Shown piece after piece: positions 49,088 through 63,999 of a stretch of DNA of 64,000 bases (positions are counted from its first letter, which is position 1; each line of letters opens with the position of its first letter). A program made the translations under genes and the position numbers. The DNA comes from Pimelobacter simplex. GTDB lineage: Bacteria > Actinomycetota > Actinomycetes > Propionibacteriales > Nocardioidaceae. The stretch covers positions 62,001 to 126,000 of the forward strand of contig JADCLI010000003.1 in assembly GCA_016803235.1 (NCBI GenBank), written 5' to 3'. The notes below the pieces were generated by a model that saw only the letters and a program-made list of their open reading frames with translations, searched no databases and was not told the origin of the DNA.

Positions 49088-50056
49088 TCAGGAAGTGACG
49101 GAAGAGGGCGTCTTGCTCATCAGCGTGACCAGGTCGAAGGCGACCGTGGCAGCCGCGACGCACGTGATCTCCGCGTGGTCGTAGTCCGGCGCGGTCTCGA
49201 CGACGTCGGCACCGATGAAGTCGAGCCCGTCCAGCCGGCGCAGCACGTGCAGCAGCTCTCGGCTGTTGAGGCCGCCCATCTCGGGCGTGCCGGTGCCGGG
49301 CGCGAAGGCCGGGTCGAGCACGTCGATGTCGATCGAGACGTAGACGGGCGCGTCGCCGACCCGCTGGCGGATCTGCTCCGCGGCCCCCTCGACGCCGAGG
49401 AAGTCCAGGTCGCCGGCGCGGATGGTCCGGAAGCCGAAGGACGCGTCGTCGGCGAGGTCCATCTTGTCGTAGATCGGCCCGCGGATGCCGATGTGGATCG
49501 ACTTGTCCTCGGCCAGCAGGCCCTCCTCGAAGGCCCGGCGGAAGACGGTGCCGTGGGTGATCGGCGCCTTGAAGTAGGTGTCCCAGGTGTCCAGGTGGGC
49601 GTCGAAGTGGATCAGGGCGATCCGCCCGTGCTGGGCGTGCGCCGCCCGCAGCATCGGAAGCGCGACCGTGTGGTCGCCGCCGAGGGTGACGATCCGCCGG
49701 CCTGCCCGGCCGTGGACGTCGCGGGCCATGTCCTCGATCTGCTGCATCGCCTCCTCGATGTCGAAGGGCGTGCAGGGCACGTCGCCGGCGTCGACGACCT
49801 GGATCTCGTCCAGTGGCGCGGTGTCGAGCTCGACGTGGAAGCGCGGCCGCAGGTGGCGGGAGGCCTGCCGGATGCCCATCGGGCCGAAGCGCGCACCGGG
49901 TCGGTACGACGTGCCTCCGTCGAACGGCACACCGAGGATCGCGACGTCGTAGTCGGGCACCGACTCGATCAAGGGGATCCGCGCGAAGGTGCCGAGACCG
50001 GCGTACCGCGGGACCTTCGTCGCCTCGAGGGCGCCGATCGGCTGGTGCTTGCTCAT
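49088..50056 (-). CDS. Ureohydrolase family hydrolase (agmatinase/guanidinobutyrase type)
   Basis: The 322-aa binuclear-Mn enzyme of the arginase/agmatinase family has all metal ligands: H129 (GGDHT), D152, H154, D156 (FDAHLDTWD), D243 and D245 (SIDIDVLDP), plus the GTGTPEMGG loop. It should release urea (or a related leaving group) from a guanidino compound. Agmatine, guanidinobutyrate and guanidine-like substrates all occur in this branch and cannot be told apart by eye. ATG 50056 overlaps the permease stop (ATGA). The downstream glyA has its own riboswitch. Confidence 0.92.
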   Translation of the reverse strand: MSKHQPIGALEATKVPRYAGLGTFARIPLIESVPDYDVAILGVPFDGGTSYRPGARFGPMGIRQASRHLRPRFHVELDTAPLDEIQVVDAGDVPCTPFDIEEAMQQIEDMARDVHGRAGRRIVTLGGDHTVALPMLRAAHAQHGRIALIHFDAHLDTWDTYFKAPITHGTVFRRAFEEGLLAEDKSIHIGIRGPIYDKMDLADDASFGFRTIRAGDLDFLGVEGAAEQIRQRVGDAPVYVSIDIDVLDPAFAPGTGTPEMGGLNSRELLHVLRRLDGLDFIGADVVETAPDYDHAEITCVAAATVAFDLVTLMSKTPSSVTS

Positions 50057-51462
50057 GCGGAGATCTCCGTTTCGGGGGTGAGGACGGCACTCGGCTGCCG
50101 GCGCCGGGCACGGAGCAGGCCGAGGTAGATGAAGAAGGTCGCGATGCTCCCGACGATCCAGGAGGTGTCGACGGCGCCGGTCTGCTTCGCGATCGTGCCG
50201 ACGTAGAGGGTCGTCGACATGAACGGGATCTGCACCAGGCAGCCGATGACGTAGCTGACCAGCGCCGGGACGTTGAACGCGCCGTATCCGCTCCTCGGAT
50301 CGCTGAACGACTCCGGGTCGTAGTGGCCCTTGTGGACCAGGTAGTAGTCGACCAGGTTGATGATGCTCCACGGCACCAGCAGGTAGGCGAGGACCAGGAT
50401 GAAGTTGGTGTAGTCGGCCATGAAGTCGTCGGAGACGGTCGTCGAGGCGACGAACACGGCGATCGCGAGCACCGCGGCGGTGACGTGGCGGGCCGAGGCG
50501 CGGGGCGCCCAGTTCAGCTTGAAGGTCTGGATGCAGGTCAGCACGCACAGCGACGAGCCGTACATGTTGATGACGCCGGCGTCGATCGCGCCGAGGAAGA
50601 AGGCCAGCATCACGAAGACGAACACCGGCTTCGGCATGATGGTGTCGAGGTCGGCCAGCACGCCGTCCGCGCCGAGCCCGGCGACCAGGAAGGCGCCGAC
50701 GGTCATCGCGCCGATGACGCCCAGCACGGTGCCGGCGTAGGTGTACCAGAACGCAGCACGGGTGCCGGTGCTCGAGGGCAGGTAGCGGGAGTAGTCCGAG
50801 ACGTACGGCGCGTACGACAGCTGCCACACCCCGACCACCGACGCCATCCCGAGGAAGCCGGCCCAGGTGAAGGAGCCACCGGCGGAGGTGATGTTCCCGC
50901 CCACCTCGGCGGCCTCCATGCCCGTGTAGACGAGCGTCAGCACCAGGGCCAGCCCGGAGAGCCAGACCATCACCCGGTTGAAGCGCAGGATGAGCTGGTA
51001 GCCCACGACGACGGCGGTCAGGGTCAGCGCGGTGCTGAGCAGCAGGCCGGCCGTCTGGCCGAGCCCGGTGAGCACCGCGCCCAGCGTCTGCTGCGCCAGC
51101 ACCATCAGCGACACGATCCAGCCCACGTAGATCAGGACCACGATCACGGTGATCGGGACCGAGCCGTACATGCCGAACTGTGCCCGGGCCTGGATCATCT
51201 GGGGTACGCCGAGCCTGGACCCCTGGGCCGAGTGCAGCGCCATGAAGACGGCGCCCACGAGGCTGCCGCCGACGATCGCGAGGATCGTCGAGCCGACGTC
51301 GAGACCGAAGATGGTCGGCCCGAGCAGGCCGGTGACGACGGCCAGCGGGATGATCTGGACGGTGAACCAGAAGGAGAACAGGTGCTGGACCTTGCCGGTG
51401 CGCTGCGACTCCGGCACCGGTTGGATCGTCAGCCCCTCGACGATCGTGCTTTCCTGCGACAT
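50053..51462 (-). CDS. NCS1-family permease (cytosine/purine/hydantoin-type)
   Basis: The 469-aa permease has about 12 helices and NCS1 features: an N-terminal SFWFTVQIIPLAVVTGLLGP, QARAQFGMYG, FLGMASVVGVWQLSYAPYVSDYSRYLP and a Tyr/Asn-rich helix near NMYGSSLCVLT. Members import cytosine, allantoin, hydantoins, uracil or related rings with H+ or Na+. ATG 51462 is preceded by AAGGAA. It lies between an aldehyde dehydrogenase and a ureohydrolase with which it overlaps, so the transported compound is probably the ureohydrolase pathway substrate. Confidence 0.9.
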   Translation of the reverse strand: MSQESTIVEGLTIQPVPESQRTGKVQHLFSFWFTVQIIPLAVVTGLLGPTIFGLDVGSTILAIVGGSLVGAVFMALHSAQGSRLGVPQMIQARAQFGMYGSVPITVIVVLIYVGWIVSLMVLAQQTLGAVLTGLGQTAGLLLSTALTLTAVVVGYQLILRFNRVMVWLSGLALVLTLVYTGMEAAEVGGNITSAGGSFTWAGFLGMASVVGVWQLSYAPYVSDYSRYLPSSTGTRAAFWYTYAGTVLGVIGAMTVGAFLVAGLGADGVLADLDTIMPKPVFVFVMLAFFLGAIDAGVINMYGSSLCVLTCIQTFKLNWAPRASARHVTAAVLAIAVFVASTTVSDDFMADYTNFILVLAYLLVPWSIINLVDYYLVHKGHYDPESFSDPRSGYGAFNVPALVSYVIGCLVQIPFMSTTLYVGTIAKQTGAVDTSWIVGSIATFFIYLGLLRARRRQPSAVLTPETEISA

Positions 51463-51487
51463 GGCGGTGTTCCTTCGCTGGTGGAGG

Positions 51488-52921
51488 TCACGCGTGGTGC
51501 TTGACCATGACGTGCTTGGTGCGTGAGTAGTCGTCGAGCGCGTACGCCGACAGGTCGCGGCCGTAGCCGGATGACTTGAAGCCGCCCCACGGCATCTCCG
51601 TGGCGAAGGCGAGGTGGTCGTTGACCCAGACGGTCCCGAAGTCCAGCCTGCTCGGAAGGCCCGCTGCCCTGCGGGCGTTCTCGGTCCACACCGAGGCCGA
51701 CAGGCCGTACGGAGTGGCGTTGGCCGCGGCGATCGCCGCGTCCTCGTCGGTGAAGGTCTCGACGGTGACGACCGGGCCGAAGATCTCCTCGGTCGTGCAG
51801 GCCGCACCTTCGGGGACGTCGACGAGCACGGTCGGCTCGACGAAGAAGCCGGGCCGGTCCGGCACCGTGCCACCGACCGCAGCGCGGGCACCGTCGGCAT
51901 ACGCCTGCTCGAGGGCGGCGACGACGCGGGCGTGGTGCTCGCCGGAGACGAGCGGACCCATGTCGACGTCCTCGCCGTCGGTCGGGGCGCCGACGACCAT
52001 CGCCTCGACCCGCTTGACGAGGCGGGCGACGAGGTCGTCGTGGACGGCGGCGTCGACGATGACCCGGCACGCGGCACCGCAGTCCTGGCCGCTGTTGCCG
52101 AAGCCGGCGAACACGATGCCGTCGGCGACGGCGTCGAGGTCGGCGTCGGCGAAGACGAGGACCGGTGCCTTGCCGCCGAGCTCGAGGTGGACCCGCTTGA
52201 GGGTGGCGGCCGCGGCGGCGGCGACTGCCTGACCGCTGCGGACGCTGCCGGTGACCGAGACCAGGTCGATGCCCGGGTGGGTGGCGATCGCGGCGCCGAC
52301 GACGGCGCCGTCGCCGGTGACGACGTTGAGGACGCCGGCGGGCAGCACGTCGGCGACCAGCTCGGCCAGGCGCAGCGTGCTGAGCGGGGTCTGCTCCGAG
52401 GGCTTGAGCACGCAGGTGTTGCCGGCCGCGAGGATCGGCCCCAGCTTCCATGCCGCCATCAGCAGCGGGTAGTTCCACGGCGTGATCGCACCGACCACGC
52501 CGACCGGCTCGCGCAGGATGGTCGAGGTGCTCCCCTCGACGTACTCCCCCGCCGCCAGCGCCACCTGGGCGCGCACCGCGCCGGCCATGAACCGGAAGGT
52601 GTCGGCGGTGCCGGCGACGTCGTCGGCGGCCAGCCCCTGCGGCTTGCCGGTGTTGCGCGACTCCAGCGCGGCGAGCTCGGTCGCGTGCTCGTCGACGATC
52701 GCGGCGATCGCCAGGAGCACGTCGGCGCGGTCCTTCGGCGTACGCCGTCCCCAGTCGGCACTGGCGCGACGGGCCGCGCCGACGGCTCGGTCGACGTCGG
52801 CGGCGGTGCCGCGGCGGGCGTGGGCGACCACCTGCCCGGTGGACGGGTCGACGACCTCCTGGGTCGCGGGCCCGTCGCCCTCCCAGGGGGCGCCGTTGAT
52901 GACATGGGCCAGGATGGTCAC
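51488..52921 (-). CDS. NAD(P)-dependent aldehyde dehydrogenase, aminobutyraldehyde dehydrogenase-like
   Basis: The 477-aa ALDH has N150 (PWNYP), K173 (VLKPSEQTPLS), the general base E247 (LELGGKAP) and the nucleophile C281 in NSGQDCGAACR, a motif close to that of gamma-aminobutyraldehyde dehydrogenases. It would oxidise an omega-amino or guanidino aldehyde to the acid, giving a natural step before the ureohydrolase. GTG 52921 overlaps the stop of the small dehydrogenase subunit gene (GTGA). Confidence 0.93.
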   Translation of the reverse strand: MTILAHVINGAPWEGDGPATQEVVDPSTGQVVAHARRGTAADVDRAVGAARRASADWGRRTPKDRADVLLAIAAIVDEHATELAALESRNTGKPQGLAADDVAGTADTFRFMAGAVRAQVALAAGEYVEGSTSTILREPVGVVGAITPWNYPLLMAAWKLGPILAAGNTCVLKPSEQTPLSTLRLAELVADVLPAGVLNVVTGDGAVVGAAIATHPGIDLVSVTGSVRSGQAVAAAAAATLKRVHLELGGKAPVLVFADADLDAVADGIVFAGFGNSGQDCGAACRVIVDAAVHDDLVARLVKRVEAMVVGAPTDGEDVDMGPLVSGEHHARVVAALEQAYADGARAAVGGTVPDRPGFFVEPTVLVDVPEGAACTTEEIFGPVVTVETFTDEDAAIAAANATPYGLSASVWTENARRAAGLPSRLDFGTVWVNDHLAFATEMPWGGFKSSGYGRDLSAYALDDYSRTKHVMVKHHA

Positions 52922-53325
52922 GACAGCTCCGCCCCGTGGATGTCGAAGCCACGGTCGACGACGACCTCGAGCAGGTCGGCATAGGTGTCGATGTCGTCGT
53001 TGGCCTGGCGCGGCGCCGGGCGGTAGCTGAGCGCCTGCTGTACCTGCGGGCTCTGCAGGTAGGCGCCCGACACCAGGGTCGAGAGCGCCTCGAACTCCGC
53101 GATGTGGGCGCCGGAGATCAGGTCGAGGGCAGCTTCCGCCTCGAGACCGTCGGCGAGGTCCAGGGCGCGTTCGAAGGCCGGGACCAGGTCCGGCCGGAAG
53201 CCGAGGACCCGGTCGATCAGGTCAGCGGGTACGCCGGCCGCCGACGCGGACGGGAAGGCATCCGTCCCGGGGATGAGCACGTCGGCGAGGACGGCGAGGC
53301 GTTCGCGGGCGGTGGGGTCGAGCAT
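52918..53325 (-). CDS. Gluconate 2-dehydrogenase subunit 3-like small subunit
   Basis: The 135-aa helical protein (LAVLADVLIPGTDAFPSASAAGVPADLIDRVLG) is typical of the small subunit that escorts GMC flavoproteins of the gluconate dehydrogenase type. There is no twin-arginine signal, so the complex probably stays cytosolic or partner-exported. The GMC gene lies 28 bp upstream and the aldehyde dehydrogenase overlaps downstream. ATG 53325 with AAGGA at good distance is favoured over GTG 53328. Confidence 0.8.
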   Translation of the reverse strand: MLDPTARERLAVLADVLIPGTDAFPSASAAGVPADLIDRVLGFRPDLVPAFERALDLADGLEAEAALDLISGAHIAEFEALSTLVSGAYLQSPQVQQALSYRPAPRQANDDIDTYADLLEVVVDRGFDIHGAELS

Positions 53326-53355
53326 CACGGTGTCCTTTGCTGTCCGTCGCGGCCG

Positions 53356-54978
53356 TCAGGAGGCGGAGACCTGGTGGGAGCGGTGGTCGGCGAGATGGCG
53401 CGCGGCGCGCAGGGCGACCGCCATGATCGTCGCGGTCGGGTTCACGCCGGTCGACGTCACGAAGTTGCTGCCGTCGAGCACGAAGAGGTTCGGGATGTCG
53501 TGCGAGCGTCCCCACTGGTCGACGACCGAGTCCGTGCGGTCCTCGCCCATCCGGGCGCTGCCCAGCAGGTGCCAGCCGCTGTCGCGGACCACCCGGTCCA
53601 CGTGGGTGCTGACCGCGCCGGCGGCCTCGTGCGCCTCGACGGCACGGGCGATGTGGAAGTCGAGCAGCCGGTCGTTGTTCTCGGTGATCCGGTAGTTGAT
53701 CTTCGCGGCGGGGATGCCGTCGGAGTCGGTGAGATCGGGGTCCAGGACGACCTCGTTGCCCTCCTCCGGCAGGTCCTCGGTGGTGATGCCCCACTCGAGC
53801 GTGCGCCCGAAGGTGCCGCTGAGCCTGTCGTGGAAGCTGCTGCCGAAGCCGTCGCGCCAGTCGGTGCCCGGCTCCCAGAGCACCCGGTTGAGCGGGCCGG
53901 GGGTCGGCATCAGGTTCCACTTGCCGCCGCGCACGAAGCCGCGGGACTCGTCGGTCTCGTAGAACTGCAGCGACTGCAGCGACTGCCCGGCCGGGCCGAG
54001 GTGGCTCTCCAGGTCCTCGTCGTAGGTGCCGTAGACCGACGCGTAGGGGTGGATCATCAGCCGCTTGCCGACCAGGCCGGAGGAGTTGGCCAGGCCGTCG
54101 GGGTGCGCGGAGGAGGCGGAGTTGAGCAGGATCCGCGGCGTGCCGATGCCGTTGGCGGCGAGGATCGTGATGCCCGCGCGCTGGTGGTGCCAGCGGCCGT
54201 CGCGGTCGACGTACTCCGCCCCGGCGACCAGGCCGTTCTCGTTGGTGGTCAGCGTCCGCACCCGGGCGCCGGTGACGAGCACCGCGCCGGCGGCGATCGC
54301 GTCCGGCCAGTAGGTCAGGTCGGCGCTGGCCTTGGCGCCGGCGGGGCAGCCGGACTCGCAGGCGCCGTACCGCTGGCAGGCGGGGCGGTTGCGGAAGGCG
54401 CGGGAGGAGATCGCGTTGGGCGCGGGCCACCAGTGCCAGCCGAGCTTGTCCATGCCGCGCGCCGCCCGCAGGCCGGCCTTGCCGATCGGCAGCGGCGGCA
54501 GCGGGAAGGTGTGGGCGTCGGGGTACGACGGGTCGCCCTCGAGGCCCGAGGCGCCGATGTGGTGGGTGACCTCGTCGTAGAACGGGCGCAGGTCCTCGTA
54601 GGTGAACGGCCAGTCGTCGGCCACCCCGTCGAGCGTCCTGACCCGGAAGTCCGACGGAAGCGCGCGGACCCAGTGGCCGGAGTAGAGGATGCTGCTGCCG
54701 CCGACGCCGTTGAACAGCAGCGGCTCGAGCGGGCTGTTCTCGGCGTTGATCGGGTAGTCGGCGTCGTTGCCCCGCCGGTTGGGGCTCGGGTGCCACTGCT
54801 TGAGGCGGGCCAGCTCCCACGAGGGCTTGTCGCCGGTGAAGTCGTCGGGGAGGTTCCAGTCGCCCTGCTCGAGGCAGACGACCTTGAAGCCGCGCCTGGC
54901 CAGCTCGTGGGCCGCCACCGCGCCCGAGGGTCCCGCGCCGACGATCAGGACGTCGGCGTCTTCGACTGCTGCCTGCAC
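53356..54978 (-). CDS. GMC-family flavoprotein dehydrogenase/oxidase (large subunit)
   Basis: The 540-aa FAD enzyme has the GxGxxG start VLIVGAGPSGAVAAHELARRG, a NGVGGSSILYSGHWVR signature, a Cys-rich CQRYGACESGCPAGAKAS loop and the GMC C-terminal domain (SGWHLLGSARMG, then GVNPTATIMA). It should oxidise an alcohol to an aldehyde, with the adjacent small subunit. GTG 54978 is chosen because GGAAG lies 7 nt upstream; GTG 54984 is too close to the SD. The next enzyme in the operon is an aldehyde dehydrogenase, so the two probably act in series. Confidence 0.9.
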   Translation of the reverse strand: MQAAVEDADVLIVGAGPSGAVAAHELARRGFKVVCLEQGDWNLPDDFTGDKPSWELARLKQWHPSPNRRGNDADYPINAENSPLEPLLFNGVGGSSILYSGHWVRALPSDFRVRTLDGVADDWPFTYEDLRPFYDEVTHHIGASGLEGDPSYPDAHTFPLPPLPIGKAGLRAARGMDKLGWHWWPAPNAISSRAFRNRPACQRYGACESGCPAGAKASADLTYWPDAIAAGAVLVTGARVRTLTTNENGLVAGAEYVDRDGRWHHQRAGITILAANGIGTPRILLNSASSAHPDGLANSSGLVGKRLMIHPYASVYGTYDEDLESHLGPAGQSLQSLQFYETDESRGFVRGGKWNLMPTPGPLNRVLWEPGTDWRDGFGSSFHDRLSGTFGRTLEWGITTEDLPEEGNEVVLDPDLTDSDGIPAAKINYRITENNDRLLDFHIARAVEAHEAAGAVSTHVDRVVRDSGWHLLGSARMGEDRTDSVVDQWGRSHDIPNLFVLDGSNFVTSTGVNPTATIMAVALRAARHLADHRSHQVSAS

Positions 54979-55116
54979 GTTCACACTTCCTCTGCGGATC
55001 GGTGGTCCCCGGTCTCCCGGTGCGACCAGAGTGCCTGCGACCCAGGTCACAGGTCTGCCCCGCAGGTGCCACAGTCGGCACGAGAGGTTTCGTGCGATCG
55101 CACAACCCACCGGGGC

Positions 55117-56643
55117 TCAGGCCCGGGGTGCGCTCCCCTTCGCGGGGGCGAGCAGCGACTGCGCCCGCAGCGCCAGCCAGAGCTCGGCGATGTCGGCGGT
55201 CTCGCTGGTGCTGCGCCCGGTGATCTCCTCGACCTTCCGGATCCGGTAGAGCACCGTCTGCCGGTGCACCTGGAGTGCGTCGGCGGTGCGCTGCCAGGAG
55301 CGCTGGTGGCCGAGGAAGGCGTCGAGCGTGGCGAGCAGCGGCGTGGCGTGCACCCGCTCGTACTCCAGCAGCGGACCGAGCACCCGCGAGACGAGCGCCG
55401 CGGCGTCGTCGAGCCCGCCGACGCCGACGATCGGGCTGGCGTCGCCGTAGTGGAAGGTGCGCCCGACCGAGCCCTCGGCGGCGCGCAGCGCCCAGGCGGC
55501 CTCGCGCAGCGCCTCCGGCGCCCGGTCGGCGCCGCGCAGGGGAGCGCTGATCCCGATCAGCGCGTGGGCGCCGAGGTCGCCACGGAGCACGTCGTGCACC
55601 TCGGCGGCGGGCGGCGCCAGCACGTGGAGGACCCCGGACCGGTAGTTCACGACGTGGCCGATCCCGTTGCGCCACAGCGCGATGTGGACGTCGCGCAGCC
55701 GGCCCGCGTCGTCGCCGCTCACGGCGTACAGGCGCGCCTTGGCCGGGTCGACACCGAGGCCCCTGAGCTGGCGTGCGGCGGTGCGGGCCTCGATCCGCCC
55801 CTCGAGCAGCTGCGCCAGCAGCTCGGCGCCGATGCGCCGGCGGTGCTCGTTGGCGACGACGCTCTGGGACAGCTCGAGGGCGAGCACCGTGACGGCGTGC
55901 TGCATGAGGATCGCGTCGACGGGGCTGCGGCCCTGCGACACCAGCACCATCAGCGCGCCCTGCTGGGTGGGGACATCGACCAGGCGCAGGTCGCGTCCGT
56001 CGTCCAGCGGTACGACGAGCGCGCCGGCGCGCAGGTCCGCCGTACCCCGGGTGATCTCGTGGAGCGCCCCGGCCAGGACCGGGTCGAACCGCGGGTCCTC
56101 CGGGTACCACGGCTCCCCCGACTCGCGGTGGCACACGTGCACCTCGCAGCCGAGGACCTGGGCCAGCGGCTCGCGCAGGACCGAGGCGCTGTCGTGGGTG
56201 CTGACCATGCGCTGCACGGTTCGGTAGATCTTCTCGGTGCGCACGAGCCGGTCGGACTGCTCGAGCAGGTTGGCCGCCGCGACCGCCTGCGAGATCGCGA
56301 CGAACGGCATCGGGAACTCCACCGACAGCACGCTGAGCCCGAGCCGCTCGCTCGCGGAGAGCAGCTCGTCGGTCAGCGGCGGGCAGTACATCTTCTCGCC
56401 GATCGCGAGCCCGCTGGCGCCCGCCTCGTCGAGCTTCTCGATCAGCTCTCGCTGCCCGGCTCCGCTCTCGGGGAACGACATGCCGTTGGTCAGCAGCAGC
56501 TCGCCGCCGGTGAGCCAGCGCCAGGGCTCGGGCAGGTCCGAGCCGTGGGTCCACGACACCGAGCGACCCACGCCGCCCTTGCCCGAGACCAGGTGCAGCC
56601 GCAGGTGCTGCATCTCGAGCAGGTCCGCGACGGTGATCGCCAT
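55117..56643 (-). CDS. PucR-family transcriptional regulator
   Basis: The 508-aa regulator has an N-terminal PucR domain (TVADLLEMQHLRLHLVSGKGGVGRSVSWTH), a GGDEF-like central CdaR region and a C-terminal PucR HTH (LDAFLGHQRSWQRTADALQVHRQTVLYRIRKVEEITG). Relatives control purine, GABA and allantoin catabolism in response to metabolites. The -10 TATCCT lies 6 nt before ATG 56643, with no SD, so it is probably a leaderless transcript with its own promoter inside the cluster. It is the likely regulator of the surrounding catabolic genes. Confidence 0.92.
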   Translation of the reverse strand: MAITVADLLEMQHLRLHLVSGKGGVGRSVSWTHGSDLPEPWRWLTGGELLLTNGMSFPESGAGQRELIEKLDEAGASGLAIGEKMYCPPLTDELLSASERLGLSVLSVEFPMPFVAISQAVAAANLLEQSDRLVRTEKIYRTVQRMVSTHDSASVLREPLAQVLGCEVHVCHRESGEPWYPEDPRFDPVLAGALHEITRGTADLRAGALVVPLDDGRDLRLVDVPTQQGALMVLVSQGRSPVDAILMQHAVTVLALELSQSVVANEHRRRIGAELLAQLLEGRIEARTAARQLRGLGVDPAKARLYAVSGDDAGRLRDVHIALWRNGIGHVVNYRSGVLHVLAPPAAEVHDVLRGDLGAHALIGISAPLRGADRAPEALREAAWALRAAEGSVGRTFHYGDASPIVGVGGLDDAAALVSRVLGPLLEYERVHATPLLATLDAFLGHQRSWQRTADALQVHRQTVLYRIRKVEEITGRSTSETADIAELWLALRAQSLLAPAKGSAPRA

Positions 56644-56649
56644 GGGGCG

Positions 56650-56655
56650 AGGATA
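56650..56655 (-). promoter_or_regulatory. -10 hexamer for leaderless pucR-type gene
   Basis: TATCCT on the minus strand lies 6 nt before ATG 56643 and fits TANNNT. It sits between the polysaccharide-deacetylase-fold gene stop (56663) and the regulator. Confidence 0.55.
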
Positions 56656-56662
56656 GGGCCGC

Positions 56663-57553
56663 TCAGCCCTCCGGGATCTCCGGCTGCGGGAAGACCCGAG
56701 GGACGAGGTCGAGGCCGCGGACGTGCCGGGCGATCTCGCCGCACGTCGTGACCCACAGCTCCGGCATCGCGGCCATCGTCTCCAGCAGTGACTCCAACGC
56801 GCGGATCCGGCCGAGCCGGCCACTGAGGAAGGGGTGGATGGTCAGCGTGAAGCAGGACTCGTAGCGGTAGGCCTCGGTCAGCTCGCCGGTCCACATCGAC
56901 AGCGCCTTCGCGGGGTCCTCGATCACGCCCGGCCCGAACACCTCCGGGACGAACGCGAACTGCTCCCAGTCGTCGAGCGCCCAGGAGACGGGGATCTCGA
57001 CGATCGAGCGGGCGCCCTCCCCCGGCCGCTCGGCGAGCTCGTAGGGCAGGTCGGAGTCCATCAGGCTGGAGTCGTAGAGGAAGCCGCGGTCGAGCAGGAT
57101 GTTCGCGGTGGAGTACGACGTCTCCCACAGCGGCGCGCGGTAGCCCACCGGACGCACGCCGAGCACCTTCTCCAGCGACTCGAGCCCGCGGTCGATGACG
57201 GCCGCCTCCTCGTCGTACGAGAGCCCGGCCATGGCCTCGTGCAGGTAGCCGTGGTGGGCGATCTCGTGGCCGGCGTCGCGGATCCGCCGGAGCAGGTCGG
57301 GATAGCGCTCGACGGTGTAACCGGGTGCGAAGAAGGTCGCCTGGAGGTCGAACCGGTCGAGCAGGTCCAGCACGCGCGGGACGCCGGTCAGGGCGCCGTA
57401 CGCCTGGTGGCTCATGACGGAGAGCCGCCCCCGCGTGCCGGGGTCGATGGTGAGCGCGACGTCCTCGGAGTCGAGGTCGAAGCCGAGGTTGGCGGCCGCG
57501 CGGAAGCCGGCCGGCCAGGCGATCGGGACGGCGGGCAGGGTGGCGTCGCCCAT
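56663..57553 (-). CDS. Polysaccharide-deacetylase-fold hydrolase (cyclic imidase/allantoinase-like)
   Basis: The 296-aa protein has the NodB/PDA fold with metal positions in FDLDSED (D26/D28) and HEIAHHGYLHE (H101, H105), an RAPLWETS motif, and HPFLSGRLGRI near the end. It lacks a signal peptide and cell-wall domains. In this it resembles cytosolic members that hydrolyse cyclic amides (cyclic imidase, PuuE allantoinase) rather than chitin or peptidoglycan deacetylases. The ring-opening role is an inference from family and neighbours. ATG 57553 shares one base with the SDR stop codon (TGATG). Confidence 0.8.
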   Translation of the reverse strand: MGDATLPAVPIAWPAGFRAAANLGFDLDSEDVALTIDPGTRGRLSVMSHQAYGALTGVPRVLDLLDRFDLQATFFAPGYTVERYPDLLRRIRDAGHEIAHHGYLHEAMAGLSYDEEAAVIDRGLESLEKVLGVRPVGYRAPLWETSYSTANILLDRGFLYDSSLMDSDLPYELAERPGEGARSIVEIPVSWALDDWEQFAFVPEVFGPGVIEDPAKALSMWTGELTEAYRYESCFTLTIHPFLSGRLGRIRALESLLETMAAMPELWVTTCGEIARHVRGLDLVPRVFPQPEIPEG

Positions 57554-58332
57554 CACGCACGCGCCCTGGTGCTGCCGCCGTTGGCGGACAGGGTCTGGCC
57601 GACGAACGCCTTGAGGCCGGGCCGGGCGAGCAGGGCGACCGTGGCGGCGATCTCCTCGGGTCGGCCGATCCGGCCGGCCGGGATCGCCCTGCCGTACTCG
57701 GCGTGCATCTCCTCCAGCGTGAGGCCGGCGTCGTCGGCGTCGACCTGCAGTTGCGGAGTGTCGATGATCCCGGGTGCGACGGCGTTGACGGTGATGTCCT
57801 CCGGCGCGAGCTCGCGGCCGAGCGACTTGGTCAGCGCGATCAGGCCCGCCTTGGACGACGCGTACGCCGTGGCGTTCGGCCAGCCGACCACGCCCCACTC
57901 GGAGGTGATGATCACGATGTTGCCCCGGCCCCTGCTCCGCATCCCGGGGAGCACCGACTGCACGCAGCGGTAGGTGCCGGACAGGTTGGTGTCGATGTTG
58001 CGCCACCAGTCGTCGAGCGGCTGCTCGAGCAGCGGGCTCATCGACATGTACGCCGCGTTGCAGACCAGGACGTCGACCGGCCCGTGCTCCTCCTCGACCC
58101 GGGCGAACGCCGTACGCACGGAGGCCGCGTCGGCCATGTCGGCCACGACGGGGAAGCCCCCGGTGAGCTCGACGACCTCGCGCATCTGCTGGGTGTCGGC
58201 ACGACCGTTGACGCCCACCTCGGCGCCCTCGGCGGCCAGCCGCAGCGCGATCGCGCGGCCGATGCCCTGGGTGGCGCCGGTGACGACAGCGACGCGGCCC
58301 TGCTGGTGGCGCGGAGGCTGGACGTCGCCCAT
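57553..58332 (-). CDS. Short-chain dehydrogenase/reductase (first of a pair)
   Basis: The 259-aa classical SDR has TGATQGIG, NAAY (in place of NNAG), the Ser of IIITSEWG and YASSK, and ends QTLSANGG as in beta-ketoacyl-reductase-like dehydrogenases. Its ATG shares a base with the stop of the second SDR (TGATG). It should oxidise or reduce a hydroxy/keto intermediate of the pathway. The substrate is unknown. Confidence 0.92.
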   Translation of the reverse strand: MGDVQPPRHQQGRVAVVTGATQGIGRAIALRLAAEGAEVGVNGRADTQQMREVVELTGGFPVVADMADAASVRTAFARVEEEHGPVDVLVCNAAYMSMSPLLEQPLDDWWRNIDTNLSGTYRCVQSVLPGMRSRGRGNIVIITSEWGVVGWPNATAYASSKAGLIALTKSLGRELAPEDITVNAVAPGIIDTPQLQVDADDAGLTLEEMHAEYGRAIPAGRIGRPEEIAATVALLARPGLKAFVGQTLSANGGSTRARA

Positions 58333-59036
58333 CAGATCACTGCTCCCATGTTGGGTGAGATGACCTCGCCGAAGCAGAAGCCACCCTCGTCGACGAGGAA
58401 CTGCACGGCCTGCGCGATGTCCTCGGGCCGGGCGAGGGCGCGTGCGGGCAGGGACGCGAGGTACTCCGGCGTGCGCTGCGGCGCCGGGAGCAGCGGGGTG
58501 TCCGTCGGTCCGGGCGCGACGGCGTTGACCCGTACGCCGCGCCCGGCGACCTCCGCGCCGAGGCTGCGGACGAAGCCGAGGACGGCACCCTTGGCGGCGG
58601 AGTAGTGCGCCTCGCTCTCGGTGCCGGCGATGCCGAGCTCGGAGGAGATGGCGACGATCGCTCCCTCGCCGCGCTCGATCATGCCGGGCAGCACCTCGCG
58701 CACCGGGTTGAGCAGCCCACCGACGTGGACGCGCATCATCCGTGCCCAGCGGTCCTCGTCGATCTCGGAGAACGGCACCAGCTCGTAGTGGCCGGCGGCC
58801 GTGACGAGGGCGCCGACCGGCCCGACCTCGTGCTCCACCCTGGCGAGCGCCGCCCTGACGGCGTGCGGGTCCGACACGTCGCAGACCAGAGAGTGCGTCA
58901 GGTGCTCGGCCCGGCGCATGTCCAGACCGCACACGGTCCAGCCGGTCTCCTCCAGGGCGCGGCACACGGACGCGCCGATGCCCGAGGCGGCGCCGGTGAC
59001 GACGGCGGTCCGGCGCTGCGGGGTCTCCGGTCCCAC
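58332..59036 (-). CDS. Short-chain dehydrogenase/reductase (second of a pair)
   Basis: A 234-aa SDR with TGAASGIG, DMRR after strand 2, CDVSD, TAAGHY (unusual NNAG position), SSELG and YSAAK. The frame is open to 59099 but GTG 59036 has GGAGGA ideally spaced and begins just before the fold, so it is preferred. Pairing with the next SDR gene by a one-base stop/start overlap suggests two successive redox steps or a heteromer. Confidence 0.88.
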   Translation of the reverse strand: MGPETPQRRTAVVTGAASGIGASVCRALEETGWTVCGLDMRRAEHLTHSLVCDVSDPHAVRAALARVEHEVGPVGALVTAAGHYELVPFSEIDEDRWARMMRVHVGGLLNPVREVLPGMIERGEGAIVAISSELGIAGTESEAHYSAAKGAVLGFVRSLGAEVAGRGVRVNAVAPGPTDTPLLPAPQRTPEYLASLPARALARPEDIAQAVQFLVDEGGFCFGEVISPNMGAVI

Positions 59037-59141
59037 GATGTCCTCCTCCACGGCGCCCGCGGCGGGCACCAGGTGCGCCATCATGGCGACGGAGGTCACA
59101 TCGCCGCAGCCTCGATCAGGTAACAGATCGCCCGCTGCCGT

Positions 59142-60374
59142 TCATACGTTCGCACAAATCGCGCTCTCCCCCCGACGGCGCACGACCTCGCCGCCCTGCA
59201 GGACCAGGCGCAGGTTGCGGTCGAAGTGCCCGAGGTCGTCGAGATCACCGTCGACGACCACGAGGTCGGCGGCGAGACCGACCGCGATCCTGCCGACGTC
59301 GTCGCGGTCGAGCAGGTCTGCGGCCGAGCCGGTCGCCGCGTGCAGGGCCTGGGCCGGGGAGAGTCCCGCCCGGACCAGCCACGCGAGCTCGCGGGGCGCC
59401 GCGCCGTGCGCGAACACCCCGCTGTCGGTCCCCATCGCGATCCGTACGCCGCCCGCGTGGGCGCGCGCGACGGCGTCGAGGTGCGTGGCGGCGATGGCGC
59501 GGGCCTTCGCCTCCATCTCCGGGGCGACGACCATGCCGTCGTCGATGGCCTCGACCAGGGCGACAGGCGCCAGCAGCGTGGGAACCAGCCAGGCGCCCGT
59601 GGACCGGAACAGCTCGACGCACTCGTCGTCGACGAACACGCCGTGCTCGATCGAGCGGACCCCGGCGCGCAGCGCCCGCTTGATGCCCGCCGCCCCGTGG
59701 GCGTGGGCCATCACCGAGACGCCCGCGGACGCCGCCTCCTCCACGCAGACGGCGAGCTCGTCGTAGGAGAACTGCGGGTGCCGCGGGTCGTCCCGCGTCG
59801 ACATCACGCCGCCAGAGGCGCAGACCTTGATCGTGTCGGCGCCGGCGCGGAGCAGCTCGCGGACCCGCTTGCGCATGCCCTCGACGCCGTCGACGACGCA
59901 GTCGGGCCGGCCGGGATGGGGCACGAACAGGCGCTGGTGGTCGCCGTGCACGTTCCAGCCGTCGACGTGGCCGCCGGTCTGGCTCAGGGCCGAGATGGAG
60001 ATGGCCATCCGCGGCCCGGCCACCAGGCCCTGCTCGACCGCCGTCTTCACGCCCAGGTCGGCACCGCCGGCGTCGCGCACCGTCGTCACCCCGCTGTGCA
60101 GGATCGTGCGCAGGTTCCCGATCGCCTCGAAGAACTCCAGGGAGAACGGCCGGCCCTGCACCCGGGCCAGGTCCATCCCGTCGAAGATCGTGTGGACGTG
60201 GCAGTCGATCAGGCCCGGCGCGACGAGCGCCCCCGTCACGTCGAGGACGGTGTCGCCCCCCAGGCCGGCACCGACCTCGACGATCCGGCCGCCGGCGAGC
60301 GCGACGTCGGCGTCGAACGGGTCGGCGCCCGTGCCGTCGAAGACGCGCCCGCCGCGCAGGACCGTGCGGGTCAC
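59142..60374 (-). CDS. Amidohydrolase-superfamily metal-dependent hydrolase
   Basis: The 410-aa TIM-barrel enzyme has metal ligands H59/H61 (CHVHT), the carboxylated-Lys site K183 (TIKVCASGG), H224/H226 (MAHAHG), H244 (EHGVF) and D317 (MGTDSGV). This pattern fits the imidazolonepropionase/prolidase-like group that cleaves cyclic amides or N-acyl and dipeptide bonds. GTG 60374 overlaps the DUF917 stop codon (GTGA), so it belongs to the hydantoinase-like module. The 42 bp before the next gene show nothing distinctive. Confidence 0.92.
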   Translation of the reverse strand: MTRTVLRGGRVFDGTGADPFDADVALAGGRIVEVGAGLGGDTVLDVTGALVAPGLIDCHVHTIFDGMDLARVQGRPFSLEFFEAIGNLRTILHSGVTTVRDAGGADLGVKTAVEQGLVAGPRMAISISALSQTGGHVDGWNVHGDHQRLFVPHPGRPDCVVDGVEGMRKRVRELLRAGADTIKVCASGGVMSTRDDPRHPQFSYDELAVCVEEAASAGVSVMAHAHGAAGIKRALRAGVRSIEHGVFVDDECVELFRSTGAWLVPTLLAPVALVEAIDDGMVVAPEMEAKARAIAATHLDAVARAHAGGVRIAMGTDSGVFAHGAAPRELAWLVRAGLSPAQALHAATGSAADLLDRDDVGRIAVGLAADLVVVDGDLDDLGHFDRNLRLVLQGGEVVRRRGESAICANV

Positions 60375-61456
60375 GTGAGTGCCACCGCGTCCTCGACCGG
60401 CCGGTAGTCGATGTCGTAGCCGAACCGGCGCGGCCCGGACAGCTCGATGCCCGCCTCGGTGCGCCAGTGCGGGTCGGCCGGGAGGCCGATGACCGCCACC
60501 CGGTAGCCGTAGCGGATCTCCTCCGCCGGGATCGGCTCACCGGTGTCGATCTCCATCGCCATGATCAGGTCGGGGCTGCTCGCCACGACCTCACCGTCGC
60601 GCTTGGCCGCGAGGTTCTCGTTCTGGAAGTGGACCGTCATCGTGTGGCCGACGTCGCCGTCGATGCCGCTGAGGTGGGCGGTGCCGATGGTCCAGCCGCG
60701 CTCGTTGCGACGCTCCACCTCCTCCACCTTGCCGGTGAACAGCAGCACGCCACTCTGCTTCTCCAGCACCGCGTGCACCGGGGAGACGTGCGCCTCGCGC
60801 GCCTCGCGGATCGTGCGGCCGATGTCCTGCGCCATGGAGAGCGCACCGCGGACCAGCCACTCCTTCGCCTGCCTTCCCGACATCGGATACAGGGCCGACG
60901 CGGCGTTGGCGCCGCTGGCGAGCACCGCCGCCCGGGCGTAGGCCTCGGCCCAGGAGTTCGTCGCCGACTCCAGGAACATCGTGTTGCCGTGCTCGTCGAT
61001 CATGACCATCGGCGTCGCGGACCCGCCGTACAGCGTCGGGGTCACCATCTCCAGGTGCGGGAACGCGCGACCCATGCCGTCGGCGTCGATCACCGGGAGG
61101 TTGCGGGCCGCGGCGGTCGCGAACGGGGTGACGGCGTTGAGGCCGCCGGCCTCGATCGGGCAGACGTACTCGTAGGTGACGCCGGTGAACCGCTCGAGCT
61201 CGTCGAGGACGCGCTCGTACTCGACGGCCCGCGGCAGCTTCTCGATCAGGACGCCGGGCGCGCCGATGCCGGCGATGAACACCACGTTGGCGTCGTCCGG
61301 GACCTCCTCGATGTCGACCAGGCTCACCGGGCCGAAGCGCCGGATGGCGTCGCGGGCGAGCAGCATGCCGACGTACGGGTCACCGCCGCCGCCGGAGCCG
61401 AGGATGGTCGAGCCGAGGGTGATGTCGTTGAGGGCTTCCTCGTCGATGGTGCGCAT
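60371..61456 (-). CDS. DUF917 protein, partner of hydantoinase A-like protein
   Basis: The 361-aa protein matches DUF917: LGSTILGSGGGGDPYVG near the start, the IEAGGLNAVTPFA, DADGMGRAFPHLEM and GSATPMVM segments, and FQNENLAAK. It is regularly encoded next to hydantoinase/oxoprolinase A-type genes, here 1 bp away, and presumably forms a complex with that protein. Catalysis is not established. ATG 61456 follows the HyuA stop directly. Confidence 0.88.
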   Translation of the reverse strand: MRTIDEEALNDITLGSTILGSGGGGDPYVGMLLARDAIRRFGPVSLVDIEEVPDDANVVFIAGIGAPGVLIEKLPRAVEYERVLDELERFTGVTYEYVCPIEAGGLNAVTPFATAAARNLPVIDADGMGRAFPHLEMVTPTLYGGSATPMVMIDEHGNTMFLESATNSWAEAYARAAVLASGANAASALYPMSGRQAKEWLVRGALSMAQDIGRTIREAREAHVSPVHAVLEKQSGVLLFTGKVEEVERRNERGWTIGTAHLSGIDGDVGHTMTVHFQNENLAAKRDGEVVASSPDLIMAMEIDTGEPIPAEEIRYGYRVAVIGLPADPHWRTEAGIELSGPRRFGYDIDYRPVEDAVALT

Positions 61457-61457
61457 G

Positions 61458-63020
61458 TCAGTTGCCTTCCGGGGTCGTTGCGGGCTGGTGGGCGAAGGGG
61501 CCGGCGGCCTTGACGCGGACCCGGACGGCCGAGCCGCCGCCGAGGTGGGTCAGCGGTACGTCGTCCGCGTCGACGATGCGCACCAGCGCCTCGTCGGCGC
61601 CGGACTCCACGGCGAGAGCGGTCGCCTCCGCCTTGGCCTGCTCCAGCACCTCGGCACGGGTGGTCCCGCTGAGGTCGTAGATGCGGTCGACCTCGCCGCC
61701 CGCCTCCGCGAACGCCGCCCCGACCGCATTGGCGATGCCGGCGTGCTCCGGCACCACCAGGTCCTCGAGTCCCGGGACGACCCGCAGCAGCGGGCCCCCG
61801 CCGCCGACCACCACGACAGGGGTGTCGTCGGCGCTCAGCTTGGCCTTCTCCACGGCGTGGATGACCCGCTCCCCCACGATCCGCAGCGCCTGCGCGACGG
61901 TCGCGTCGGGCACGTCGGCAACGAGGGCGGGGTCGCCCATCGGGTCGGCGCCGGCACGGACGGCGACGTCGCTGAAGGTCAGCACCTCACCGCCGAACAC
62001 CCGGGCCTGCTCGGTGATCCGGAAGCCCACGCTCTCCGGGCCGACGGTGCCCCCGTCGTCCGCGATGACGGTGCCGCCGCCGATGGCGAGCGAGAGGACG
62101 TCGGGGATCCGGAAGTTGCTGCGGACGCCCGCCAGGCTCAGTGCGACCGTGGACTCGCGGGGGAAGCCGCTCTGCAGCAGGCCGATGTCGGCCGTCGTAC
62201 CGCCGACGTCGACGACGACCGCGTCCTCGATGCCGGTGAGCAGAGCGGCACCGCGCATCGAGTTCGTGGGACCGGAGGCGATCGTGAAGATCGGGTAGAG
62301 CCGGGCTCGCTCGAGGGTCATCACGGTGCCGTCGTTCTGCGAGAGCAGGATGGGCGCCTCGATCCCGGTGGAGGCGACGACCTGCTCGAGCCCGTCGATC
62401 ACCCGGGACGCGAGCTCCAGCAGGGACGCGTTGAGGATGGTGGCGTTCTCCCGCTCCAGCAGCCCGACCCGGCCGACCAGCGTCGAGCGGGTGATCGAGA
62501 CGTCCGGGAGCTCCTCGGCCAGGACCCGCTCGGCGAGCAGCTCGGGCTCGGGGTTGACCGGGGAGAAGACCGAGCTCAGCGCGATGTGGCGCACGCCGGA
62601 CTCGCCGATCTTCCGGGCGACGTCGCGCAGGCCCTCGACGTCGACCTCGCTGAGCGGGGCGCCGTCGAACTGGGCGCCACCCGCGACGATGTGGACGTCG
62701 TCTCCGACGACGCCGCGCAGCCGGTCCGGCCAGTCGATCATCGGCAGCAGGCTCTGCGGCGGCGTGGCGAGACGGACGAGCGCCACCCGCTCCAGGCCAC
62801 GCGCCTGGGCGATCGCGTTGATGAAGTGCGTGGTGCCGATGAAGACCGAGCCGATGTCGGCCGGGTCGACGTCCGCCAGCACCTCGGTGAGGGCTGCGCG
62901 GATGCCGATCGTGACGTCCTCGGTGGTGGGCGACTTGGTCGAGGCGACGACGCGCCGGCCGTCGAGGACCACGGCGTCGGTGTTGGTGCCTCCGACGTCG
63001 ATGCCGATACGAAGGGACAT
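61458..63020 (-). CDS. Hydantoinase/oxoprolinase A-like protein
   Basis: The 520-aa protein begins with LRIGIDVGGTNTDAV, the ASKHA-type phosphate loop of Hydantoinase_A_N. Further marks are the IGTTHFINA, VDVGGTTADIG, LSIGGGTV-like and VVGGGGPLL segments. Members couple ATP hydrolysis to opening of hydantoin or oxoproline rings or to related carboxylations. It has no HyuB gene beside it but a DUF917 partner, a known alternative pairing. ATG 63020 has AAGGAG upstream at good distance. Confidence 0.9.
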   Translation of the reverse strand: MSLRIGIDVGGTNTDAVVLDGRRVVASTKSPTTEDVTIGIRAALTEVLADVDPADIGSVFIGTTHFINAIAQARGLERVALVRLATPPQSLLPMIDWPDRLRGVVGDDVHIVAGGAQFDGAPLSEVDVEGLRDVARKIGESGVRHIALSSVFSPVNPEPELLAERVLAEELPDVSITRSTLVGRVGLLERENATILNASLLELASRVIDGLEQVVASTGIEAPILLSQNDGTVMTLERARLYPIFTIASGPTNSMRGAALLTGIEDAVVVDVGGTTADIGLLQSGFPRESTVALSLAGVRSNFRIPDVLSLAIGGGTVIADDGGTVGPESVGFRITEQARVFGGEVLTFSDVAVRAGADPMGDPALVADVPDATVAQALRIVGERVIHAVEKAKLSADDTPVVVVGGGGPLLRVVPGLEDLVVPEHAGIANAVGAAFAEAGGEVDRIYDLSGTTRAEVLEQAKAEATALAVESGADEALVRIVDADDVPLTHLGGGSAVRVRVKAAGPFAHQPATTPEGN

Positions 63021-63045
63021 GGGATTCACTCCTTGGGAAGGTGGG

Positions 63046-63999
63046 TCAGGCGTCGCGACGCGCGCGGTCGATCCCGACCGCGATGAGGAGGACGACGCCC
63101 TGGACTGCGCCGATCCAGAACTGGGGCATCCCGCTGAGCAGCAGGATGTTGGACAGCACGATGAGGAAGAGCAGGCCGAGCAGGGTGCCGAGCAGGGTGC
63201 CCTGCCCGCCGGAGAACCGGGTGCCGCCGAGCAGGACGGCGGTGAGTGCGAAGAACTCGTTGCCCAGGCCCGCGGACGGGTCGGCCGCGCCGAGAGCGCC
63301 CAGCAGCAGCAGTCCCGCGATGCCCGCGCACAGAGCGCAGATGCCGTAGCAGATCATCGTGACCCGGTCGACGTTCACCCCGGCCAGGCGGGCGGCCTCC
63401 CGGTTGCTGCCGACGGCGTACACGTTGCGCCCGAAGACGGTGCGGTTGAGCAGCACCCACATCAGGCCGAACACGACGGCCGCGATGATGACCGGCGTGC
63501 GGATGCCGAGGACCGAGCCGTTGGCGAGCGAGTCGAGCGCCGGACTGTGGACCGGCTTGCTCGAGCCGTCGAGGATCACCCGCAGCAGGCTCGGCAGGAT
63601 GGTGAAGCTCGCCAGGGTGACGATGAAGAAGTTCATCTTCCCCTTGGCGATGAGCAGGCCGTGCACGAGCACGCCGATGCCGAGCGCGGCCGCGAGGGAG
63701 AGCACGATGACCAGGCCGTCCGCGAGGTGCCAGCCGACGAACAGGAAGACCAGGCCGCCGACGAAGCCCTGCATCGCGCCGGTCGAGAGGTCGAAGCCGA
63801 CCTGCACGACCACGAAGGTCTGGCCGAGCGCCATGATCAGCACCGCGGAGTACGTCGCCAGCTGGACCATCAGGTACGGCCCGCTGCGCAGCTGCGGCAG
63901 GAACGGCAGCGCGACGAGGAACATCGCGACGACGATCGCGAAGAACAGGCCCTGCTGCTTGAGGGTCGACGGGCCGCTCGCCACGACGGGCTCGGGCAC
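63046..63999 (-). CDS. ABC transporter permease, RbsC-like (may continue past window edge)
   Basis: At least 317 aa with about nine hydrophobic helices and the BPD_transp_2 signature: IMALGQTFVVVQVGFDLSTGAMQGF, AKGKMNFFIVTLAS, VYAVGSNREAARLAGVNVDRV, FFALTAVLLGGTRFSGGQGTLLGTLLG. It imports a sugar or small polar compound with an ATPase and binding protein that must lie to the right of the window. GTG 63999 is the last in-frame start visible; the true start may be a few codons beyond. It opens the minus-strand catabolic cluster seen here. Confidence 0.88.
   Translation of the reverse strand: MPEPVVASGPSTLKQQGLFFAIVVAMFLVALPFLPQLRSGPYLMVQLATYSAVLIMALGQTFVVVQVGFDLSTGAMQGFVGGLVFLFVGWHLADGLVIVLSLAAALGIGVLVHGLLIAKGKMNFFIVTLASFTILPSLLRVILDGSSKPVHSPALDSLANGSVLGIRTPVIIAAVVFGLMWVLLNRTVFGRNVYAVGSNREAARLAGVNVDRVTMICYGICALCAGIAGLLLLGALGAADPSAGLGNEFFALTAVLLGGTRFSGGQGTLLGTLLGLLFLIVLSNILLLSGMPQFWIGAVQGVVLLIAVGIDRARRDA

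Follow-up and report, generated by a model that had tools for sequence, protein, structure and literature searches.

A Pimelobacter simplex gene run made of two separable blocks, the lower one predicted to open a creatinine-like lactam

The subject of this analysis is a run of minus-strand catabolic genes at the end of a 64,000-nucleotide stretch of Pimelobacter simplex DNA, referred to below as the window (GenBank assembly GCA_016803235.1, contig JADCLI010000003.1; contig 33, bases 62001-126000, of a 5.36 Mb genome). The cluster consists of two separable blocks lying side by side, head to tail, on the same strand. The upper block comprises ABC transporter genes, a HyuA-type hydantoinase, a DUF917 protein and an amidohydrolase (AMH). 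The lower block reads SDR1-SDR2-PDA-PucR-GMC-GMCs-ALDH-NCS1-ureohydrolase, where the SDRs are short-chain dehydrogenases, PDA is a hydrolase of the NodB-type deacetylase fold, GMCs is the small subunit of the GMC dehydrogenase and ALDH is an aldehyde dehydrogenase. We predict that the lower block imports a guanidino compound and oxidizes it to a creatinine-like lactam, that PDA opens the ring, and that the ureohydrolase releases urea. The probability of this reading, two joined blocks with that function for the lower one, was put at about 0.47.

Two blocks and the seams between them

Thirteen consecutive minus-strand genes lie at 49088-63999, as an earlier note on this DNA had reported. Profile scans of the window proteins returned the families it had named: two uptake systems, HyuA/DUF917, an amidohydrolase, SDRs, a deacetylase fold, GMC with its small subunit, a ureohydrolase and PucR. 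The features are as follows.

49088..50056, minus: ureohydrolase, predicted guanidino-acid type, lower block; PF00491, 316.9 bits
50053..51462, minus: NCS1-family permease, lower block accessory; PF02133, 155 bits; TIGR00800, 106 against a cut-off of 353.1
51488..52921, minus: ALDH, lower block accessory; NF010000, 622.3 against a cut-off of 615
52918..53328, minus: GMCs, small subunit paired with the GMC dehydrogenase; weak PF13618 (Gluconate_2-dh3-like), 22.2 against 23.4 bits
53356..54984, minus: GMC dehydrogenase large subunit; PF05199/PF00732; start chosen from sequence
55117..56643, minus: PucR1, PucR-family regulator; PF07905 and PF13556; PmfR model, 180 against a cut-off of 800
56663..57553, minus: PDA, predicted lactam (acyl-guanidine) opener; PF01522, 74.5 bits
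57553..58332, minus: SDR2; PF13561/PF00106
58332..59099, minus: SDR1; PF00106
59142..60374, minus: AMH, Xaa-Pro dipeptidase/arginine carboxypeptidase-like, upper block; PF01979, 161 bits; NF051886, 287 against 500
60371..61456, minus: DUF917/S-Me-THD-like protein (DUF917a), upper block; PF06032 and PF20906
61458..63029, minus: HyuA-type hydantoinase/oxoprolinase, short form, upper block; PF05378, 122.6 bits; PF01968, 96.5 bits, partial model
63046..63999, minus: ribose-type ABC permease, upper block; PF02653 (BPD_transp_2), 95 bits; PRK09512, 173 against 398
47546..48823, minus: serine hydroxymethyltransferase (SHMT), 264 bp downstream of the ureohydrolase; NF000586, 598.8 bits
59010..64000 (to ~79078 extended), no strand: window part of a 20-kb stretch absent at the same site in SLBN-35 and G177; collinear DNA matches

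The run goes on for two genes past the window end, with an ABC ATPase and a Peripla_BP_4 binding protein on the same strand (L010:32-2648). The complete run has 15 genes in 17.6 kb and faces a divergent plus-strand operon ordered Race1-HyuAb-DUF917b-DUF917c-PucR2-Race2, in which Race1 and Race2 are Asp/Glu/hydantoin racemases. L010:2860-9649 (extended window 66860-73649) contains this operon followed by beta-eliminating-lyase-like and M20 peptidase genes. Five gene junctions overlap, three by 4 nt and two by 1 nt, in agreement with the 1-4 nt seen earlier. Gaps are at most 42 nt from the binding protein to PucR1 (SDR1 start taken as 59099), 132 nt before GMC, at most 27 nt across the genes GMC through ureohydrolase and 264 nt ahead of SHMT, all based on starts chosen by sequence and then adjusted by eye.

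By PDA, Nocardioides albidus and Nocardioides sp. SLBN-35 are the closest named relatives among the matches listed. In SLBN-35 (G634; locus L107) and in genome G177, window positions 59007-47550 are matched collinearly at ~91% DNA identity and extended positions 79078-84000 at 87-90%. About 147 bp separate the two matches in L107, G177 and G634, whereas the window has 20 kb there. The 20 kb missing in SLBN-35 and G177 holds AMH, DUF917, HyuA and the ABC genes together with the divergent racemase/HyuA/DUF917/PucR operon. Both genomes carry a diverged upper block (DUF917a 76%) ~670 kb from the lower block, at ~2.96 vs 3.63 Mb in SLBN-35 and ~2.76 vs 2.08 Mb in G177. In G595 both blocks are joined in the order and orientation of the window, with an APC permease in between. 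N. albidus (G556) has the lower block alone, with no DUF917a match at E 1e-70. Mobile-element signs were sought at the 20-kb stretch; no tRNA gene was found in L010, L106 or L107, with transposases and integrases not specifically searched, and the part scanned for repeats (L010:10000-18000) contained only short imperfect repeats.

An extended lower block, with PDA at least 95% identical, was found in five Nocardioides genomes out of 215 searched. The blocks are joined in 2, present but apart in 2, and DUF917a is unmatched at E 1e-70 in 1 (N. albidus). DUF917a at ≥76% identity occurs in 7/215 genomes. In G187 and G177 the binding protein, ATPase, permease, HyuA and DUF917 (plus AMH in G177) face a HyuA/DUF917/PucR2/racemase operon; the SDR1-to-ureohydrolase genes were not found in the 39 kb read there, bar weak SDR and ALDH paralogues in G187. 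SLBN-35, G615 and G602 hold the same upper block ending in AMH, and no lower-block genes were found beside it in the stretches read. AMH adjoins DUF917a in G177, G595, G634, G615 and G602 but not in G187. On the divergent side, relatives of the lyase-like gene occur in G634, G615 and G602 and relatives of the M20 gene in G634 and G602. Relatives of both also flank the upper block in G177.

The converse holds for the lower block. SDR1-SDR2-PDA with PucR1, GMC, GMCs and NCS1 was found in N. albidus (L106), SLBN-35 (L107) and Mycolicibacterium frederiksbergense (L108), with GMCs adjoining GMC in all three and a close ALDH in L106 and L107. HyuA, DUF917, AMH and ABC genes of the upper-block kind were not found in the 20 kb read of these loci. 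SHMT lies beside the ureohydrolase in four Nocardioides genomes (the window's, SLBN-35, G177 and G595) and was not found beside the N. albidus block. It is possibly linked to a glycine product, or possibly a housekeeping neighbour; a second SHMT is present elsewhere in the window genome.

The earlier note had taken the whole run as one pathway. In such a pathway of 13 to 15 genes, ring opening would be the task of HyuA/DUF917, with AMH and PDA working on other amide bonds before a final ureohydrolase step. The joined arrangement in G595 favours it, as does the presence somewhere of a close DUF917a homologue in 4/5 genomes with the extended lower block, set against the 7/215 overall, a count uncorrected for relatedness. 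The same genes nevertheless sit in separate places in close relatives, namely SLBN-35 and G177, and N. albidus gave no DUF917a match at E 1e-70. G187, G602 and G615 hold the upper block and gave no PDA match at E 1e-70. Among 80 PDA loci (the best of at least 423 confirmed), 0/80 matched HyuA, DUF917, AMH, the binding protein or the ABC permease at E 1e-15 over the stretch read. The single-pathway idea has thus largely failed, and we consider it improbable. For the proposed scheme, the ring opener is PDA rather than the hydantoinase/DUF917 pair.

A further seam lies ahead of SDR1. G595 and N. albidus have an APC permease directly ahead of this gene. The window matches G595 up to 59010 and then again from 59007, and the intervening 1.4 kb is gone, so the window has lost the permease. 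The SDR1 frame is headed by the first ~20 codons of the deleted permease (GTG ~59069; in-frame seam ~59007). The stretches of SLBN-35 and G177 also gave no such permease, and their sequence ahead of SDR1 is different. We take it that strains with NCS1 have lost one importer repeatedly.

Profile scans define the accessory genes as follows. ALDH is of the aminobutyraldehyde kind, as had been proposed; it passes the NF010000 subfamily, and the stricter equivalog TIGR03374 is not reached (507 vs 909). The NCS1 permease meets PF02133 but not the TIGR00800 nucleobase symporter cut-off. DUF917a meets both its Pfam domains and falls short of the desulfurase cut-offs NF058532 (102.5 of 450) and NF058529 (100.5 of 440). 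The HyuA match covers the HyuA N-terminal part. The nearest solved relatives are glucose and fructose dehydrogenases (6a2u, 7w2j) for GMC and 3feq, 3mtw and 3be7 for AMH, while SDR1 (represented by its L097 relative) and SDR2 gave mostly generic FabG-like matches.

The lower core across actinobacteria

A search of 394 class genomes for the ureohydrolase at E 1e-90 matched 125/394, mostly a group at 55-60% identity plus a smaller group from 74% down to ~63%. In 5/14 neighbourhoods read (L096, L097, L098, L103, L104), PucR, PDA, APC permease, SDR1, SDR2 and ureohydrolase occur together in varying order. GMC was also tried as the anchor of the lower block. It matched 12/394 genomes at E 1e-100, and 0/13 neighbourhoods held the SDR1-PDA-ureohydrolase set; GMC is therefore not what defines the pathway.

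A profile built from seven PDAs was then run against one genome per species, which matched at least 595 stretches and confirmed at least 423. In the best 80, genes within 7 kb of PDA were counted at identity floors of 45% (ureohydrolase and SDRs), 35% (APC, PucR, GMC) and 24% (NCS1, ALDH). Many contigs are short, and gene calls that use GC bias miss or misframe some genes, so locus counts and gene-cluster counts are lower bounds. The ureohydrolase was near PDA in 62/80 loci. SDR1 was counted in 45/80, APC in 44/80, SDR2 in 43/80, NCS1 in 32/80, PucR1 in 31/80, ALDH in 6/80, and GMC and GMCs in 3/80 each. GMC, GMCs and the window's kind of NCS1 are thus taken as additions in few lineages. Among the named hosts are Mycobacterium, Mycolicibacterium, Rhodococcus, Streptomyces, Pseudonocardia, Actinomadura, Cryobacterium and Acidimicrobiaceae. 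The full gene set that the earlier note wished to see sought across actinobacterial genomes is thus joined only in the 2/5 Nocardioides genomes above, and the lower core recurs. Likewise its scheme of ring opening, oxidation of alcohol and aldehyde, and ureohydrolase cleavage was a good guess for the lower block, in which the ureohydrolase lies ≤300 bp from PDA in 51/80 loci, but not for the whole set.

A second form is found in loci without the SDRs. There PDA often lies beside another NCS1 permease (28/80, two gene clusters). A CodA-like protein of the cytosine-deaminase family is present in 21/80 PDA loci (13 in gene cluster 7 and 8 in cluster 9, fusions included), and in 7/8 cluster-9 loci it forms one open frame with PDA (L138 scanned). 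We regard this fusion as good evidence that both serve one pathway. The fusion loci L119, L120, L121, L122, L123, L124 and L138 all contain a ureohydrolase (7/7), most with another NCS1.

Other PDA neighbourhoods differ. Nine Arthrobacter and Paenarthrobacter loci place NCS1-PDA near a soxA-like gene and have no ureohydrolase within 7 kb; L174, the only one of the nine scanned, has sarcosine oxidase alpha and gamma (soxA, soxG), serine ammonia-lyase (sda) and PurU. At L150:2357-13871, NCS1-CodA-PDA without a ureohydrolase lies beside xanthine dehydrogenase, adenosine deaminase and 8-oxoguanine-deaminase genes, and L139 is alike by shared clusters. In M. frederiksbergense (L108:1045-6020) a primary-amine oxidase and a phenylacetaldehyde-type ALDH lie upstream of APC-SDR1-SDR2-PDA-ureohydrolase.

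Ring opener, ureohydrolase and the predicted route

PDA meets the CE4 deacetylase domain PF01522 (74.5 vs 23.1). Its match to PDB entry 3rxz, which is named only polysaccharide deacetylase and which we take to be an M. smegmatis protein, scores 333 bits over 288 residues. PDA scores 81 bits against PuuE, and the PuuE allantoinase model TIGR03212 gives 83.7, below its cut-off of 424.6. Of the earlier call, a deacetylase fold of the imidase/allantoinase kind, the fold stands and the allantoinase cut-off is not reached. Relatives of PDA number at least 3,661 protein clusters at E 1e-60 (7,999 scored), and those with names among 120 matches listed are called polysaccharide, xylan/chitin or peptidoglycan deacetylases. 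A cell-wall role sits badly with a protein that occurs fused to a deaminase and adjoining a ureohydrolase. The N-terminus of PDA, read by eye only, shows no hydrophobic stretch or signal peptide.

PDA might instead be an allantoinase or imidase for a purine-derived hydantoin (allantoin or 5-guanidinohydantoin), with the gene set a variant of purine salvage. The PuuE model is among PDA's best, PucR and NCS1 are present, purine genes lie beside NCS1-CodA-PDA in L150, and Arthrobacter locus L163 has the allantoinase AllB with the glycerate kinase and thiamine pyrophosphate (TPP) enzyme of shared gene clusters. On the other hand the score is far under the cut-off, AllB is already present in L163, the thirteen genes of the window block include no uricase or purine gene, and the ureohydrolase and SDR pair would be poorly explained. 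We give purine salvage little credence.

The best solved relatives of the window ureohydrolase are 3-guanidinopropionase (GpuA; 3nip, 270.6 bits), guanidinobutyrase (GbuA; 3nio, 251.7), proclavaminate amidinohydrolase (PAH; 240.7) and agmatinase (207.6). Positions H129, D152, H154, D156, D243 and D245, presumably the arginase-superfamily metal ligands, are invariant in 13 ureohydrolase sequences. In an alignment of 108 rows, which includes the window and repeated loci, window R70 aligns with GbuA R72 and is Arg in 101/108 and Lys in 7/108. R72 caps the substrate carboxylate in GbuA (PMC9772407). In the substrate loop Trp replaces Asn (DTWDTYF vs DTNDRYF/DVNDHMF) in 104/108 rows. The window enzyme is therefore predicted to be of guanidino-acid type.

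The clade of the window enzyme has 17 rows, including G545 and the pair G345/G200, at a support of 97 (quick tree, SH-aLRT only). After the G545 ureohydrolase come a D-Ser/D-Ala/Gly-type transporter, gcvP, gcvT, gcvH, glyA (SHMT) and sda. In L093 (G345) and L094 (G200) a creatininase-family gene lies ~2-3 kb downstream of the ureohydrolase on the same strand; the L093 protein, the only one scanned, passes TIGR04448 (266 vs 235). No creatininase-family PF02633 gene was found by profile scans among the window's 13 genes.

Three side observations concern these enzymes. At L093:8253-10252 two unlike ureohydrolases (41% and 71% identical to the window's) stand in tandem before 2-hydroxyacid dehydrogenase, creatininase and SDR genes. 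The window genome has a second ureohydrolase at 56% identity, whose matched span contains one TGA (G000:C28:38510-39448). L116, a metagenome-assembled genome labelled Spirochaetaceae, and L102 (G289, of the window's class) have identical ureohydrolase rows on 7,747-long contigs; the label may be a binning error.

The predicted route starts with import of the guanidino compound. Guanidino aldehydes can ring-close to cyclic hemiaminals, and from such a hemiaminal the SDRs would make the ring carbonyl of a lactam. In the second form a CodA-like deaminase could make this carbonyl from a ring amine. PDA would hydrolyse the creatinine-like lactam (a cyclic acyl-guanidine) to a guanidino acid, and in the two relatives above a creatininase-family enzyme perhaps opens the lactam in its place. 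The ureohydrolase would then cut the guanidino acid to urea and an amino acid. GMC, GMCs and ALDH would be a parallel route from guanidino alcohol through aldehyde to the same acid. The chemistry throughout is predicted, and the SDR, GMC and ALDH steps are assigned by family alone. Opening of a cyclic acyl-guanidine yields a guanidino acid, and it is here that we infer a link between PDA and a ureohydrolase with a carboxylate-capping Arg.

For the window's clade we favour, with modest confidence, a two-carbon acid similar to guanidinoacetate or creatine, which would give glycine or sarcosine. 2-Guanidinoethanol is a piece of the earthworm phosphagen lombricine, and in the window it could be one starting compound, giving glycine and urea. 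Gene context lends support both to glycine/sarcosine and to beta-alanine as products, and chain length is taken to vary among ureohydrolase clades from their specific contexts and the AGMAT result below.

Several points weigh against this reading. We know of no activity or substrate for any family member met. The window ureohydrolase passes the agmatinase models TIGR01230 (227.3 vs 174.3) and NF002564 (315 vs 302), although agmatinases of solved structure score below GpuA, GbuA and PAH. The Tyr that marks GpuA is present in the window enzyme. It is shared by 104/108 rows, and a fungal enzyme specific for 4-guanidinobutyrate also carries Tyr at this position (PMC10833137), so it was ruled out as proof of 3-guanidinopropionate and cannot decide chain length. 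Human AGMAT, a related enzyme, did not cut guanidinoacetate or creatine (PMC9772407), which counts against the two-carbon choice. The stretch read at the G545 gcv locus gave no PDA, and SHMT may be only a neighbour. No ureohydrolase lies within 7 kb in 18/80 PDA loci, ten of them Arthrobacter-type; L118, L139 and L150 have NCS1-CodA-PDA without one, and from the purine gene set in L150 PDA may open other rings there. Finally, 4/80 PDA loci, with other ureohydrolase clades, hold a class-III transaminase and a methylmalonate-semialdehyde-type dehydrogenase (L185 pair scanned), which suggests beta-alanine and 3-guanidinopropionate.

These last loci bear on a serious, if less probable, alternative. 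Here the lower block would break down a guanidino compound of three or four carbons, taking 3-guanidinopropanol/3-guanidinopropionate to beta-alanine or agmatine/4-guanidinobutanal to gamma-aminobutyric acid (GABA), and the ring form would be a side product salvaged by PDA. Besides the beta-alanine-type genes in 4/80 loci, it is favoured by 3-guanidinopropionase as the closest solved enzyme, by an ALDH of the aminobutyraldehyde kind and by the amine oxidase and ALDH upstream in M. frederiksbergense. The human enzyme accepts 4-guanidinobutyrate and 3-guanidinopropionate but not guanidinoacetate (PMC9772407). Against it, the window clade has its links with glycine-cleavage and creatininase genes, and no GABA or beta-alanine gene is among the scanned genes beside the window block.

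Extending the lactam-opening route beyond the window, we tentatively suggest that the actinobacterial NodB-fold PDA is a further creatinine-type ring hydrolase. It would open cyclic acyl-guanidines inside the cell and pass the guanidino acid to a dedicated ureohydrolase, with SDR pairs, a fused CodA-like deaminase or GMC/ALDH making the ring or acid from differing starts. If so, a large family annotated as cell-wall deacetylases would be small-molecule ring hydrolases, and soil actinobacteria would share a common nitrogen-scavenging route for cyclic guanidines. The blocks themselves call for caution with one-pathway readings, since two blocks may simply meet within a long gene run on one strand.

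Comparison with known systems

A PDA-ureohydrolase cassette was not found described in the open-licence literature searched, and the wider literature may hold one. In the upper block and divergent operon the make-up is that of HyuA-DUF917-racemase clusters: hydantoin racemases and DUF917 proteins are reported to be enriched near cyclodipeptide oxidase (CDO) genes (PMC11055893).

Metformin degradation resembles the lower block in pairing an NCS1 permease with a ureohydrolase for a guanidino compound. It uses the NCS1 importer MetT (PMC13390362) and the ureohydrolase MetCaCb (PMC11271267); substrates of NCS1 carriers include hydantoins, nucleobases and, in one case, metformin (PMC13390362). Against the window enzyme, subunits A and B of metformin hydrolase give 81.8 and 60.1 bits, far below GpuA. 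To our knowledge the metformin system has no PDA.

The window ureohydrolase belongs to the same subgroup as GbuA and GpuA of Pseudomonas aeruginosa and keeps the metal ligands and carboxylate-capping Arg. It differs by Trp for Asn in the substrate loop, and the gene context is unlike. PuuE allantoinase and 3rxz share PDA's domain family, but PDA misses the PuuE cut-off.

The closest likeness in chemistry, as proposed here, is to the creatininase (PF02633/TIGR04448)-creatinase-sarcosine oxidase route, namely lactam opening, urea release and an amino acid. Creatininase-family genes also occur close to ureohydrolases of this kind in two relatives. Creatinase has the M24 fold. In the window the predicted ring opener has the NodB/CE4 fold and the urea-releasing enzyme the arginase fold, and SDR, GMC and ALDH genes are added. 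The cassette would thus work like the creatinine-creatine-sarcosine route with other protein folds.

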